The position numbers and the translations under genes are program-made. From contig NC_135260.1 of NCBI RefSeq assembly GCF_964204865.1, positions 8,308,001 to 8,372,000 on the forward strand: DNA of 64,000 bases, given 5' to 3'. The first letter of the stretch is position 1. Every line of letters starts with the position of its first letter. The notes beneath the pieces are model-generated. The model was given only the letters and a program-made list of their open reading frames with translations, did not search any database and had not been told where the DNA came from. Below are positions 3,301 to 28,400 of the stretch, piece after piece. Source of the DNA: Styela clava. Lineage: Eukaryota; Chordata; Ascidiacea; Stolidobranchia; Styelidae.

Positions 3301-5016
3301 CTTTTTGCCTGTTTTTCCCAACTCTTTATCCAATCTTCCTCATCTTTCCGTCGCATGAAAATTAGCTGAGAAAAGATATATGCTTCGTAACCTTGCCAAA
3401 ACTAGGCCGATTTCATAATATAAATAGATTACGGAAATTGAGAAGTTCCCGAACTTTGACCGCGACGAATACGCTATGATACGTGACTTCGTTCACATGG
3501 GGGATTACATCAGCATTTAGAATTCCGGGAAATAGGCGTCACGTATCAAGTATTTCGACCCTGATAAAATATCGTCTGACATAAAATACTTTTTAGAATG
3601 AGCGTGTGTTTACCGCCACCGATATAATATCATGCGACTCCATGCAAGCTAATCATAAAGGATATTCGTCCTATTTACATGGAGATATTTAATTTTCGCC
3701 TTCTTATTATATAGCACCTGAAATCAGCTACTTCAACAAATTTGAATAGAATGAACATTTGCAATCGAAAAACAAACTCGATTCGGATAATAGCATGAAA
3801 TGTTGTCGTTCCTTAATATTCTATATGTTATTAACTGACCCTCGATGTACGTCCGTTGGGATTCATAATGAATGTTGCATAAGGTAATATCGAATATGGT
3901 GATATAATAAGGCTATAGCTTGTGGAGTTAATTCCCATGTATTAGATGCCTCATCGTTTTCGATTTAGTCTACAGCGTAAATAATTTAAAACATAAATAA
4001 GTCAAATTGAGGAAGCGTTCTTAAGCAACTGGGGTGGCACAATTTAGATCAGGGGTCGGCAAACTACGGCCCGCGGGCCAGATCCGTCCCGCGGAACAAT
4101 ATAATCCGGCCCGCAACGCTTCACTAAATTATATTAACAAAACAACTGTATTGACGATCATATTCTTTACGTAACAGAATTTGTTTTAAGAAACTAAATT
4201 ATATTATAACATAACAAGTATATAATTCACAATCACTCGTTTAATGAGCCTATAAATTGATTATAATTGGACAAATGGCAACAGAGCGTAAAAAGGTGAT
4301 GCTGAGTGCAAACGGTTTAATGCCGCAGGAAATATACAAATGATCAGTCTTTGCGTGTTGCTTGAAATTTAACTGAAATCTGTTGGAAAAAATGTGATTC
4401 ATTGGCCATTCCCTCGGTTTTTAACTTTCTAAAAATATGTGCGGCCCACCAATGGCTTGCAACCTTTTATTTTAGCCCGCGAAAGACAAAAGTTTGCCGA
4501 TCTCTGATTTAGATCATTCATTTGTCTTCTAAACATGAATGTAATCAAAAGATTAAAAAATTCTCGCAGAATTAGTTTCTGCCAGGAACAGGATTGTGGA
4601 TAAGCAAATGCAACGCTTGCATAAAAACTGCGGAAATAAGAGGTAATGTCGACAGTCGTTCTTTTGAACTATTTTTTTCTTTCAATTTTTAGCTTTAATT
4701 TGAAAACATTTGTCGCCAATATCAAAACAATAGCCGTATAGAGTAATATATATTTGTTTCATACTTTACAATCCGGAAAAGCCTCCAAAATTTCTTCCCA
4801 AAAAATGACGACCGGAATATCCATGGAGGCATCAACATTTTTATACATTCGATAAAAGTCTTCTTTTGTTCCTCCTTTTGTGAGAATCTTTATCCAATCG
4901 TTTCGCAGATAGTAAAAATTATCTTCATAATCATAAATGCTGTATCCAAGGATGCGAAGAGCAGAATTCATTGTTTTTGTTCCCGTTTTGGAAAACCCGA
5001 CAACTAAGACCTTCAT
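318..5016 (-). CDS. Sulfotransferase-like P-loop protein (Sulfotransfer_4 type) with C-terminal membrane anchor, 4 exons
   Basis: Coding exons, in order of transcription: 5016-4765, 3365-3218, 1133-1024, 557-318. They total 750 nt, giving 249 aa plus stop. All introns are GT-AG and the phases agree. The N-terminus carries the PAPS-binding P-loop SKTGTKT (residues 9-15) after a beta strand. It is followed by FYRMYKNVDASMDIP and WEEILEAFPDCK, both typical of the Sulfotransfer_4 family of animals. Later family landmarks are RKDEEDWIKSWEKQ, RYRDHN and EGWDPLCKFLGKPIP. These proteins are presumed PAPS-dependent sulfotransferases, but their substrates are largely unknown. The last ~20 residues form a hydrophobic segment ending in FYFK, so a tail-anchored protein is likely (inference). 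Length is normal for the family. Intron 2 holds two hAT MITEs. The 3' end of exon 1 was also copied into a transposon at 9209-9320. The start is the first Met, directly before the P-loop strand. Confidence 0.88.
1248..2112. mobile_element. hAT-type MITE, copy 1 of a head-to-tail pair
   Basis: The element starts TAGGGATGGG and ends CCCATCCCTA, a perfect 10-bp inverted terminus. It is flanked by a perfect 8-bp target duplication GTGGTTAT at 1240-1247 and 2113-2120. Eight-base duplications are the hallmark of hAT insertion. It has no transposase. Near both ends are many GGACTCGAATCC-like subrepeats, and there is a short TTAC microsatellite near 1710. It lies in intron 2 of the sulfotransferase gene. 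Confidence 0.9.
2122..3164. mobile_element. hAT-type MITE, copy 2 of the head-to-tail pair
   Basis: Same family and orientation as 1248-2112: it starts TAGGGATGGG and ends in a degraded GGCCATCCCT. It begins one base after the right target duplication of copy 1. Its own target duplication is not visible. The right end lies about 53 bp inside intron 2 from the splice donor of sulfotransferase exon 2 (3218). The two copies share the terminal GGACTCGAATC subrepeats and the internal order of segments, but have diverged by indels. Confidence 0.82.
4050..4506. mobile_element. hAT-type MITE, 457 bp, perfect target duplication
   Basis: Left terminus CAGGGGTCGGCAAACT. The right end reads in reverse as CAGAGATCGGCAAACT. 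Both flanks carry ATTTAGAT (4042-4049 and 4507-4514), a perfect 8-bp duplication. The CGGCCCGCGGGCC-rich left arm is shared with the elements at 7283 and 59500. Non-coding. It sits in intron 1 of the sulfotransferase gene. Confidence 0.92.
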
Positions 5017-7274: not shown

Positions 7275-7282
7275 GTCTACAA

Positions 7283-7576
7283 CAGGGGTCACCAAACTTT
7301 TTTGACCGAGGGTCAGGTATGAATGACTATTTTTGTCAATGCAATACAATAAATTCACAAAAGTTGGGAAATCCATTCAATTTATTGCACAACATAAATT
7401 CTAACATTTCTGAAATCTCTAATATTATATTCTATATCGCAGAATATAGATCAAGTACATCATAGCAAAACATATATATATATAAAAGATTTCGCCATTT
7501 TTTCGTGTTATTACGGGTCAGATGATAGGACGACAGAGCCGGATCTGGCCCGCGGACCGTAATTTGGTGATCCATA
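7283..7576. mobile_element. hAT-type MITE A, 294 bp, sharing a target site with the next element
   Basis: Left end CAGGGGTCACCAAACT. Right end AATTTGGTGATCCATA reads in reverse as TATGGATCACCAAATT. Perfect 8-bp duplication GTCTACAA at 7275-7282 and 7577-7584. A GCCCGCGG-rich block precedes the right end. A related right end is seen near 59500-59590. Confidence 0.9.
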
Positions 7577-7584
7577 GTCTACAA

Positions 7585-8339: not shown

Positions 8340-9208
8340 ATCTACAACACTCCACAAGACTGAAGTGCGCGAGATATAAACCGTCAGCTGGCAGTGAAGC
8401 GCTGCTATATTGAACTGCAAATTTTGAGTTATGGCGGCGGTTACTCCGTGGTTCAATTGAGATATTCCGCGAGCAACATTACGCTGTGTTCTTGTAGGAT
8501 TCTTCATTTATATTCTGGAAAATTGAAAAAAAATCCAATATGTATATATATATAGGGTGACAGAACCCACAAATTTACCAATTACGTGTACAAGAAAAAC
8601 TATATATATATTTATTTTGTTTTCGCTTGAACTCCTGTTTGTGTATGATTAAACCAAAAAGTTTCAGTAATTTCGGCCTGACACAAAAGTTATGTTATCT
8701 CTATAATATTTTCGAAATTACTTTCTTGGCATTGGAGACAGATTTTCACCCGGTGCGCAAAATTGTCAATCACTCACTTGATTTTGTGCTGAAGTACATC
8801 TTTCACCAGGAACTGTCAATAGCAAGTATATTGTATACAGGGAAACAGTACCTCCGAAAGAATTCTTTCAGGGACTGTTAGACTCAATAAATTGCACGAC
8901 GTTGGAAGACTTTTCCCAACATGGAATGGGCAATCGGTTCATATTGGTTTGAAGACGAAAATGGAAGAGCTCAAACGATGAATACAGAACGTTACCTGGC
9001 GCTGTTAAGGGAGTTCTGGACATCACGTGGACAATGTATAGAGATTGACTAAGATGACCAGTGTTTCCAGCAAGACGAGGCGACCCCCACGCATCAAATC
9101 ACACCCTTGACTGGCTGAAAAGGCAATTTCAGGAAATGAGAATAAGCAGTCAGTCCGTCGGTCACGTGAAGTGGGCGGCACCTCAATCACAATGTGTATC
9201 GAAAATGA

Positions 9209-9320
9209 TTGAAAACATTTGTCGCCAATATCAAAACAATAGCCGTACAAAATAATATATAGTTGTCTCATACTTTACAATACGAAAAAGCCTCCAATAT
9301 TTCTTCCCAAAAAATGACGA
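9209..9320 (+). repeat. 112-bp copy of sulfotransferase exon 1 / intron 1 sequence
   Basis: Matches 4700-4811 base for base over an equal length of 112, with about 8 substitutions (roughly 93% identity by eye) and no gaps. The source segment spans the splice donor and the last ~47 coding bases of sulfotransferase exon 1. On both sides of this copy the sequence reads as mariner transposase, so the patch was placed into the transposon. Confidence 0.88.
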
Positions 9321-9823
9321 ATTAGAGGCTGCCATTGCAGCAGAAATCATGCGTGTATATGGGAAGGATGTCCCTATCAGCGTGTCCTGTATTATTATTA
9401 TACATATATGTTAGCGGAGTAAGCCCCAATCTGAACTCCTCAAGAGAAGTCAATAAGCACAAAATATAATGTAATGCCAAATGTTCTTATATTGTAAAGT
9501 TGCACGATCGAATTGAATCCAAACAGATATATTGAAATATACATTTTTACCACAATACCAGCTATACGGGTGAATTCCAAGTCAATAAGAATGCACAAAA
9601 CAGGAAAAACACTATATTCTCAACTGTCGAATGTAGGCCACTCATCAGAACTCAGTCGATACAAAGAAAGCTCGACATAAAGAGTAAAAGCCTTTGCTAC
9701 GATAAATCACCATCAGGGAAATCGCTAAAATGACACATTCTCGTTAAATTCACATACTATTAATACAAAGAGGTTGAATAACATTAAAATCCATAGCGCA
9801 TTATTGCCACCGGGTAATATTTA

Positions 9824-10003
9824 TATCGATGATAAATAAAGCCCAACCGGTGTTAGCAAAACGATTTAATTTGCCGACGTTCCGAACGACGTTTTTTTTT
9901 ATCCCTATCATGCCCTGTTGAAGTTTTTATGAATAGAAATTCTAAAAATCGGCAAACTAAATCGTTTTGCTAACACTGGTTGTACTTTGTTTATTATCGA
10001 TAT
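9824..10003. mobile_element. Foldback / MITE with ~50-bp inverted arms
   Basis: The left arm begins TATCGATGATAAATAAAG and runs to AACGATTTAATTTGCC. The right arm is its near-perfect reverse complement, ending TTTATTATCGATA. The arms are ~52 bp with a ~75-bp centre. The word ATTAAAATCCATAG occurs left of the element (9783-9796) and again at its right edge (10002-10015). It lies inside the block that interrupts the mariner remnant. Confidence 0.78.
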
Positions 10004-10280
10004 TAAAATCCATAGTTATGTTCCCCATTCCTTACACGCGCGAGTGATCAACAACTTTGCGCAACGGATGCAGATCTGTCTCCAATGTCGGGGAAGTCAT
10101 TTGCAACATATTCCTGAGATAATATAACTCTTGTGAAAAGCATCCTAGATTTTTGAAACTTTTGGGTACAATCATACACAAAACAGAAGTTCAACTGTAA
10201 ACAAAATTAAATAAGTTTACTCAATTTTATAGGAGTGAATAATAAATTCATGGGTTCTGTTTTATTATATCACCCTTACA

Positions 10281-25400: not shown

Positions 25401-28400
25401 CGTTTGCGGCCCGCAATGAATTTTCCCATGTGAAAGTGGCCCGCGGCACTAAAAAGGTTGGACATGCCTGCTTTAGACATATATTTTAGTAAAACCCGAT
25501 TCCGTTATTTATGCCATTGTTTGATGACATTTCAATGTTTGTTGTGCAACTTTGAGATATCATAAAGATAGGAGTGTACCACCAGAGGAGTGTTTCCAAC
25601 ACGACCGGAAATACTATTAATTCAAAGCGTATTATATGTACTATGATATTATCAATTTGTAAATGCAGATCACTTTACACCATATTCATTGGGAGTAGTC
25701 TATTTATTCAGATCTATGTTTGTGATTACGTGTCGTTTATGAAAACAGAATTTGACGTACTGGATGGTAAACTGATTGTACAAAGATATGCGATTTTGAA
25801 AAGTCGCCATTCGAAACATAAATCCAACCTTTGTTTTTGAAGGCATTGGGAAATATTCAACTTCACCGGCATCAAATTTGAATGAATCAACTAGATAGCA
25901 ATCTTGCATCTGAAATATGAATCACCGAACATTAGGTAACTTTATGTATTTCAAGTATGAATTGAATCGATTATTTGCAGATACATTTTTCATTCAAGCA
26001 CGCAATAACCCTATATAGAAGATAAAATTTTCCAACACTTTACCCAATTTCTTTATTTTTTGGTTCAAGCTCGTAATTTTAAAACTCAGTGAAATTGGAA
26101 TATATTTTATATTGAACTTGCCGACTCTTAATGACTTGCCGGGTAAGACGTTAAAATTCTTATTAACTTGAACAAGCTATAGTTGCCATACTTTTCTATG
26201 CAGGTCAAGATACCATTCAGATGCAATCGAACTGGTAAAATCAACCAGAGCTCCGTAGCCGTCCCACCATTTTATTAATGCAGGTGTATCAGCATATTGG
26301 GTTTGAACAAACATTGATCTTAGTGTTGATGCCTTTAATATTTCTTCGTCACTTTCAAGCCAACAGAAGTTCATACTGCTTTGAAAAAGCTGAAATCAGA
26401 TCAGACATAGACACAGTAAACCTAATTGAAGTTCTGTGTTTATGGTTATAAAATTCTGGCTGTATTTTATTATGCTGATTTTACAAATTAAAATTGGACT
26501 AATGCAACATTGCTATATGTATCTCGCTATGAGACAAGTGCGTACAAATAACTCTATAACCAGATATAGTTGCCTCTTTTACATTTAGTATACTTGATAG
26601 CAGGGGCGAATATTTCGTAAAAAACTGGAACTCAGCATTGCAAACTGTGTAATGTGCAATTCGTAAGATATTCATTCAATTTTTTTCCATTCCTCGATAA
26701 GCATACGCATTTGATGAAATTGCCAAACAGATTTGATAGCGCCTCACTGTATATTGCTAAACCATATTACAGCGATTCGAAGTACCAAAAATCGTCAATT
26801 CGTTTACCTTAGAATTTACATTGACAAATGGAGTTGTCCACAACGTTACACGGAAGCCTTTATCGTGTAAAGATTGAATCATTCCTTTTGGGTCAGAAAA
26901 TGTGACAGGGTCAAAAGTCAAATCGCCATAAGCTGTTGACCATTTGTCGTCAATTTCCAGTTGGGAATTTAAAAATCCATTCTTCAAAATTTCGTCAGCA
27001 AATTGTAGTGTAGCGCTTTGGTTTATGTTTTGCTAGCAAAATAAAATATAGAATCGGTACATTTTTCGGTACTCCGGTAGTGTGTGTACCAGGTTAGAGT
27101 TAGGCCCTAATTTTATTCCGATTTTAGTTCTATTACAAGTTCTGGGACTGCCTGTGTTAGCCAAGTGAATATACCCCCTGCCCATAGGTTTCAGTTCCTT
27201 TACATAACTTGGTGTAAAGTGGGCGAACAAAATTAGTTACCTCCAATGGTACACACGCCCAATTTTCAACAAAGAAATACGATTTCTCCTAATTTATTCA
27301 TTAGCGTTCTTCTGGACTTTTTGCCCCTTTTCAAAGAAGGTTTTTTTTATCTCTCTGATTAGTTCTCATTCATACATTGTAAAAATTCTCGTTTGTGAAC
27401 TATGCTAAAAGGGAGCCGCGGTTCTGAAGTACTCCTTCCGTCTATCGTTTCCCTGTCAGTTCTTCTCAACTTGTGCTATAGCCTATATTTCAACACTCGT
27501 TTTACGCCCAAGACCTCGCTTTGAGCTGAAACATATTCGAGCATATTCGCCATAATTTCGGATGCAGGTATGCCACTAACGTCGAAGGGGTCATTTGGAA
27601 CTCATTTTAAAAATAACATAACTTTGGTGCAAAGATCATAGATTACTTGAATTTTTGGGTACAATCTTACAAAAACGGAAGTTCAAGTGTGAACAAAATT
27701 AAATAAATGTTCTTTATTTTCATAGAAATATTCAAGAAATTTTCTTCCCTCGTTTCCACAATTAATTAATTAGTCAATTAGCAAGAAGTTTTGCCTCAGG
27801 TCGGTATCTCACCTTGTATTTCGCCCAGGTAGACCACACTGGATCACGAAACATTCTTTTGTCTGGAATTCCATCCGGCTTTGAAAAGAAGGTTTTCATC
27901 GCATGCAGATGAACTTCCTAAACGTTGTGTTATATGAAAACATAAATAAGTCTTCAACAAGGTAAATTTTTGTTTAAAATTGATGCTGTACATAGTAAAC
28001 ATCCCGTGAGAATCGTTCAACGCCTCGACAAAATGTTTGTTATTTACTACTTTAACCAACTACAATTGCTAATATATAAAATCAACTAACCTTTAGATTA
28101 CTCGCTGTACAAATGTTGTATTTCAATATTGTCTTTTTATTATCCTTTCTCGGATATTCAGGATCAAAATACTTCGCCATCAAACAAAGTCTATCGTCAA
28201 AATTGTCGTTGATACCGATCCACAACGGTGTCAGATCATCAACTATGATGGCAATTCCTAAAGAACTGTGATCAAAATATAAAATAAAATTCTGTAATTT
28301 TCTGTAAGGTTCAATTTCAAAACTTTCTTTAGGTATTTCAAAAATAATGTCTGTGTGGTTCTAAAGTTATGTGTTGAATAGGGAGATTAATATTGTACTG

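Follow-up and report, generated by a model that had tools for sequence, protein, structure and literature searches.

How does a short piece of a host gene, its exon-intron boundary included, come to lie in the middle of a decayed transposase? This question is raised by a stretch of 64,000 nucleotides from the ascidian Styela clava (NCBI RefSeq GCF_964204865.1, contig NC_135260.1; C14:8308001-8372000 in the genome searched), hereafter called the window, in which 112 bp of a transposon-like sequence match the edge of a sulfotransferase exon lying 4.5 kb away. A sequence-only reading of the window had proposed that this patch results from templated repair or gap filling from the neighbouring locus and not from transposition, a proposal supported by the presence of the sequence at two genomic places, by the empty site in other copies of the element and by the sharp ends of the patch. 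The features on which the analysis bears are collected in Table 1.

Table 1. Position, strand and supporting evidence of the features of donor and recipient (window coordinates; mariner-type as assigned in the text)
Feature	Position	Strand	Evidence
112-bp patch, copy of 4700-4811 within decayed transposase	9209..9320	+	104/112 identity, sharp ends
Source of the patch: 3' end of sulfotransferase exon 1 and start of intron 1	4700..4811	-	Sulfotransfer_4 match, SgdX2 alignment
Sulfotransferase exon 1, part within the patch source	4765-4811	-	Sulfotransfer_4 match of exon 1
Splice donor GTATGA of sulfotransferase intron 1	4759-4764	-	Read in the sequence
First 65 bases of sulfotransferase intron 1, donor included	4700-4764	-	Acceptor found near 3365
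Sulfotransferase exon 1 coding sequence, 84 codons, begins MKVLVVGFSKTGTKT	4765..5016	-	Pfam PF17784, E 3.2e-21
Left terminal inverted repeat, mariner-type element	8560..8775	.	164/212 ungapped positions match the reversed right repeat; blastn 8560-8775 vs 10042-10260
Right terminal inverted repeat, mariner-type element	10042..10260	.	blastn and alignment to left repeat
Decayed transposase left of patch, with stops and frameshifts	8780..9208	+	Genomic copies; alignment to site
Decayed transposase right of patch, ELEAAIAAEIM...	9321..9394	+	Aligns with ...GELKAAIAAKI... of relatives

The patch and its two genomic places

Window positions 9209-9320 and 4700-4811 align without gaps and in the same orientation, with identical bases at 104 of 112 positions, as the about 93% identity announced beforehand had implied. 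The similarity breaks off sharply at both limits, beyond which the two sequences are unrelated, and the eight differences are distributed over intron (5/65 positions) and exon (3/47 positions). Chance similarity is ruled out by 20 first-order Markov randomisations of the window, searched on one strand each, in which the best ungapped match to the patch reached only 51-56 of 112 positions. When the window is compared with itself, the patch and its source appear among several repeat pairs of about 90% identity lying within 15 kb of each other.

At the scale of the genome (376,610,584 bases, i.e. 376.6 Mb, in 379 contigs), a search in which very common words were skipped returned the 112-bp sequence at two places, the source and the copy (two candidates, both scored). 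Since only these two places were found, the sequence is not a dispersed repeat, and a third, genome-wide repeat family shared by the two segments, for which a check had been suggested from the outset, is thereby ruled out. Segmental duplication and homologous gene conversion are likewise ruled out by the abrupt ends of the similarity and by the lack of any further blastn match between donor and target. The eight differences between donor and copy are in themselves compatible with copying from another paralogous gene, now lost or unassembled, or with the joining of the donor as a ready-made DNA fragment; against both stands the fact that the genome search gave no third place with the 112 bp and that the sole match lies 4.5 kb away, and we attach scarcely any probability to either.

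The donor and the nature of the template

The identification of the source as the 3' end of a sulfotransferase exon 1 with its intron donor, already made in the sequence-only reading, holds. Residues 2-85 of the protein read from this locus match the Pfam family Sulfotransfer_4 (E 3.2e-21), residue 85 being already an intron codon, and residues 1-85 of exon 1 align with the solved sulfotransferase-like protein SgdX2 (8y9p, E 4.2e-07). Exon 1 ends with ...PDCK at 4765, where the boundary reads AAA/GTATGA, and an acceptor is found near 3365 after TTTTCTCAG, so that ...PDCK continues in frame into LIFMRRKDEEDWIKSW of exon 2. The patch is thus made up of 47 exon bases and 65 intron bases, the splice donor being among the latter. 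As the exon part belongs to a protein family and the transposon relatives are devoid of it, the direction of copying is clear, from gene to transposon; the reverse direction, from mariner to gene, is ruled out by the alignment of the exon part with Sulfotransfer_4 and SgdX2 and by the absence of the 112 bp from the mariner relatives examined.

Intron 1 of the same gene also harbours, at 4050-4504, a probable non-autonomous element recognised by eye from its CAGGGGTCGGCAAACTACGGCCCG end and from ATTTAGAT on both sides, which we take to be of hAT type. Related ends are seen at 7276-7301 and 7540-7581.

Because the unspliced exon-intron junction of the donor is kept in the copy, spliced mRNA was not the template, and a retrocopy of such an mRNA is ruled out. 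In the same line, the features of class 1 (LINE-type) templated insertions are lacking, since the intron is retained and neither poly(A) nor target duplication is present. A reverse-transcribed, unspliced sulfotransferase pre-mRNA could still have filled a break, as proposed for the class 2 templated insertion polymorphisms of humans, which, as described in the excerpted report, share with the patch the absence of target duplication and poly(A), a small deletion and microhomology (PMC5110952). The source lies within a gene, so its RNA would presumably have been available. However, the class 2 insertions have distant templates and are proposed to be RNA-derived (PMC5110952, excerpts), whereas the donor here is near and unspliced: the piece spans an exon-intron boundary, and a donor in cis at 4.5 kb is explained by DNA templating without an RNA step. 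An RNA template is accordingly held to be highly improbable, and the argument is pursued with gap filling from genomic DNA.

The recipient element

Elements of the mariner and Tc1-mariner groups encode, between terminal inverted repeats (TIRs), a DDE/D transposase that bears motifs like FQQD and an SPDLNPxDFYLW-like stretch. The transposase piece of the window reads FQQDEATP, and in-frame pieces of single relatives contain stretches such as HSSDLNP, FYLW and DNVYQNNPQTIGELKAA; on the basis of these motifs, we tentatively take the element at 8560-10260 to be of mariner type. No transposase model was matched in a Pfam scan of the decayed transposase pieces of the window, a PDB search with the same pieces gave no transposase match and two weak unrelated ones, and a viral-contig scan for transposase produced 24 pattern matches, none of which was confirmed. 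Insertions of this superfamily are expected to be bordered by a TA target-site duplication; both ends of the element adjoin TA-containing sequence, the exact ends being eroded. The gene piece lies antisense to the transposase.

A genome search with 8780-9208 gave at least 40 matches, self included (63 candidates, 40 scored). The 39 other copies are 68-80% identical to the element over stretches of varying length, with a plain mean of 71.9%, and the matches to 8780-9208 extend no further than about position 9169. As transposase-like flanks on both sides of the patch align with other genomic copies, the earlier statement that transposase precedes and follows the patch is borne out.

The element has undergone other changes. 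Near 9183, shortly before the patch, the element lacks about 60 bp of its transposase, corresponding to the DLNPxxFYLW part; similar losses are seen in three relatives (L006, L025 and L026), and the loss may go back to the repair that left the patch or may be older. Right of the patch, from about 9395 to 10037, the element contains a further stretch of about 640 bp that is absent from the aligned relatives, with a near-palindrome at 9817-10009 (70-nt arms, 83% complementary). Part of this stretch resembles L041:7045-7315 (66%) and 44 bp of it resemble L005 (86%); it would probably represent another nested, repeat-derived insertion. Given this further deletion and this further insertion, the history of the element is not one clean event. 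Elsewhere in the window, a terminal-repeat fragment of the same family is found at 27559-27725 (76% to 10065-10232), in what is presumably an intron of a glycosidase-like gene. In one mariner relative (L030), a short stretch is repeated (GGAGAGGAAA...GCTAATCAAG) directly before the region that corresponds to the patch site, one more small rearrangement of this part of the element.

The empty site and the junctions

Comparison with the other mariner copies, which had also been recommended, shows the patch in none of the 39 by blastn, while the site is uninterrupted in 27 of them, the remaining 12 copies not showing it. For this purpose, 55 bases of one relative (L012), taken across the junction, were scored against all loci, letter-shuffled controls reaching at most 16.5. 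Among L004-L032, the score exceeded the control in 22 of 29 copies, the hit lying past the matched stretch where it was expected and in the expected orientation. Among L042-L051 the site was counted in five of ten, six having passed the control and L049 (17.0) having been left out as spurious, as it lay 2 kb away from its mariner. In several of the 27 empty-site copies, small gaps peculiar to the copy occur at the site (e.g. L014, L026, L042), and L008, L011 and L018, also among the copies, may not be independent.

A typical relative reads ACAATGTGTATCAGAACAATCCTCAAACAATTGGTGAACTCAAGGC across the site, where the window reads ACAATGTGTATCGAAAATGA, then the 112 bp, then ATTAGAGGC. Compared with seven of 15 aligned copies (L012, L013, L019, L021, L024, L025 and L028), the patch stands in place of 15-18 bp of transposase; six copies misplaced by the local alignment (L006, L007, L015, L017, L020 and L022, the value of 15 for L017 being accidental) were left out of this count, as were L009 (-9) and L026 (4, with a deletion of its own). 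Read from these alignments, the event is the replacement of a small gap and not a plain insertion.

At the right junction (marked by a slash), the donor reads ...AATGACGA/CC and the family ...TTGGTGA/AC, GA being common to the donor and most relatives. In L022 and L024 (TTGATGA/AC), TGA-GA is shared with the donor with one mismatch, and in relatives with GTAA or GTCA (L009, L013, L019, L021, L028, L031) only A is shared. The exact microhomology therefore amounts to only 2 bp, and shrinks to 1 bp should the lost bases have been GTAA or GTCA. At the left junction, 8 of 13 positions are the same in donor TTGAAAACATTTG and family CCTCAAACAATTG, over a stretch picked after seeing it; such an agreement was matched by 0.9% of 20,000 random 13-mers of the window. 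Microhomology at the junctions is thus suggestive, not proven. Neither target duplication nor poly(A) is found at the patch, and no mariner sequence is repeated at its junctions, in keeping with the initial remark that the patch has no transposon termini or target duplication of its own.

The short bases shared at the right junction also speak for end joining by polymerase theta, a pathway that might alone have produced the filler as a templated insertion. According to the excerpted report, its templates are usually flanking, short similarity is used, and the resemblance to the present case extends to filler copied from nearby at an end-joining junction (PMC2895639). However, polymerase-theta insertions are often complex and far shorter, with means of 5.5 and 7.6 nt in flies whose polymerase theta is normal, some exceeding 20 nt (PMC2895639, excerpts), and for such a pathway a single colinear tract of 112 nt copied at a distance of 4.5 kb is long. 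Polymerase theta acting alone is for this reason considered unlikely, and longer synthesis on the sulfotransferase locus is preferred.

Timing of the event

The corrected distance between patch and donor is 0.075 (the patch is about 7.5% diverged), compared with a mean of 0.35 between the element and its other copies and 0.27 between its own two TIRs. Because the distance to one decayed copy does not alone show age, the relatives were also compared with each other (29 copies, L004-L032; pairs with at least 100 bp aligned, n=343). Their median identity is 71%, and only three of the 343 pairs reach at least 90%, all of them within one trio. This trio (L008, L011 and L018) is 96-98% identical, lies within about 91 kb on contig C1, and may reflect recent local duplication or late local transposition; pairs outside it are at most 82% identical, and no sign of recent spread outside it is seen among the 29 copies compared.

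It is from the patch distance of 0.075 set against 0.35 for the element, and from the existence of only one trio of closely similar relatives, that we draw a probable arrival of the patch after the death of the element. The mariner-type family looks old and the patch younger. If the copies were alike at insertion and the two TIRs alike at the start, the patch probably came long after the element had stopped moving.

This relative dating bears on a further explanation, namely that the transposase cut the mariner out and that abortive gap repair followed, in which interrupted copying back from the template would have strayed to the gene. Abortive gap repair is an established route of internal change in DNA transposons, but excision repair is expected to leave larger deletions towards the ends (PMC8277862, excerpts), whereas only 15-18 bp were lost, in the middle of the element, relative to the cleanly aligned copies. 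Besides, the spread of the family seems to go back several times further than the patch. We consider such an origin very unlikely and retain gap filling without transposition.

A proposed mechanism

The genome search gives one donor and one copy, the patch is a replacement with sharp ends, and it is absent from the copies examined. The patch has sharp ends, a single donor close by and an intron that was kept, very little was lost, and neither poly(A) nor a target duplication is seen; all of this fits template-switching gap filling. We judge it likely, with good though not full confidence, that a break set off such gap filling, independently of transposition, and that the template was DNA lying 4.5 kb away. 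In such a scenario, a long-inactive mariner-type element would have been broken within its transposase region, with the loss of few bases (15-18 bp relative to cleanly aligning relatives). One broken end would then have annealed to the sulfotransferase locus, 4.5 kb off, over a very short stretch of similarity, and a polymerase would have copied 112 bp of genomic DNA there; finally, the newly made end would have returned to the element and been joined to the far side of the break. The pathway would correspond to synthesis-dependent repair with template switching, finishing by microhomology or end joining. What we infer from the sequence is that there was a break, that DNA served as template, that a polymerase acted, and when and in what order the steps took place. 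The 15-18 bp loss fits a spontaneous break, a nick or a fork stall alike. Of the sequence-only claim that a double-strand-break repair is recorded here, the templated repair finds support, the double-strand break itself being deduced.

Comparison with known captures of host sequence

Single-copy Pack-TIRs of animals, for which Tan et al. (2021) proposed a gap-filling pathway, are the closest parallel in the systems compared (PMC8277862, excerpts). In the excerpted data, 160 of 281 Pack-TIR donors lie within 15 kb and most of those within less than 5 kb, microhomology is present at one breakpoint or more in 67.6% (median 2 bp), the gap has a median of 4.6% of the element, and exon capture occurs in 13.4% (PMC8277862). 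The patch resembles them as a short, single-copy host piece in a TIR transposon with a donor in cis a few kilobases off, the distance of 4.5 kb fitting their bias towards nearby donors; few element bases were lost, microhomology is at most small, the capture is exonic and probably followed transposition (PMC8277862, excerpts). Host sequence lies between two recognisable TIRs (8560-8775 and 10042-10260) with transposase-like sequence on both sides. The parental copy, sought at 90% identity or more outside the transposon, is unique, with 93% identity, two genomic places and the source in a gene, and the patch itself is a single copy in the genome search, with 0 of 39 mariner relatives carrying it. 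Unlike Pack-TIRs, the element here is much decayed and shows further rearrangements. BLAT scores are obtained as matches minus mismatches. By this arithmetic the patch would score about 96 (104 matches minus 8 mismatches), against the Pack-TIR cut-off of 100, and its 112 bp compare with a Pack-TIR median of 224 bp in the excerpted data (PMC8277862).

The patch shares with plant Pack-MULEs and similar gene capture, as mentioned in excerpts of the same paper, the presence of host gene pieces within DNA transposons (PMC8277862). The piece described here, however, is found in one decayed copy only. Captured pieces of the Pack-MULE type can be mobilised and multiplied.

Frequency and significance

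No similar low-copy patch from the neighbourhood was found in 19 of the 39 other copies (L033-L051, of which L033-L041 are the same copies as L024-L032), each taken with 10 kb around it; the survey covered the recognised element limits, 142-1632 bp long and often short, inserts outside them being missed. Four self-matches were obtained, each common to 10-14 other loci and hence repeats, and the same rules run on the window recovered the 112-bp case and nothing else. This small sample hints that such patching is rare per copy.

Taken together, these data make the patch an instructive but ordinary example of a process previously reported from animals. The view that the locus shows how transposons acquire exon pieces stands in so far as an exon piece does lie in a transposon, and is softened by the fact that the element was probably dead and the piece is antisense. 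One could go further and imagine dead transposons near genes as recurrent repair targets that gather splice-ready pieces, the present one offering a possible exon and splice donor to minus-strand transcripts running through the old mariner; we put this forward as a speculation of very low probability. What the patch offers is an unusually legible record of repair, as its donor is known, near, still present and the only other match in the genome search, as 27 sister copies display the empty site, and as a junction left unspliced points to DNA (or pre-mRNA) as the template. It adds a case to the evidence that pieces of host genes in animal DNA transposons can stem from the repair of breaks after mobility has ended.
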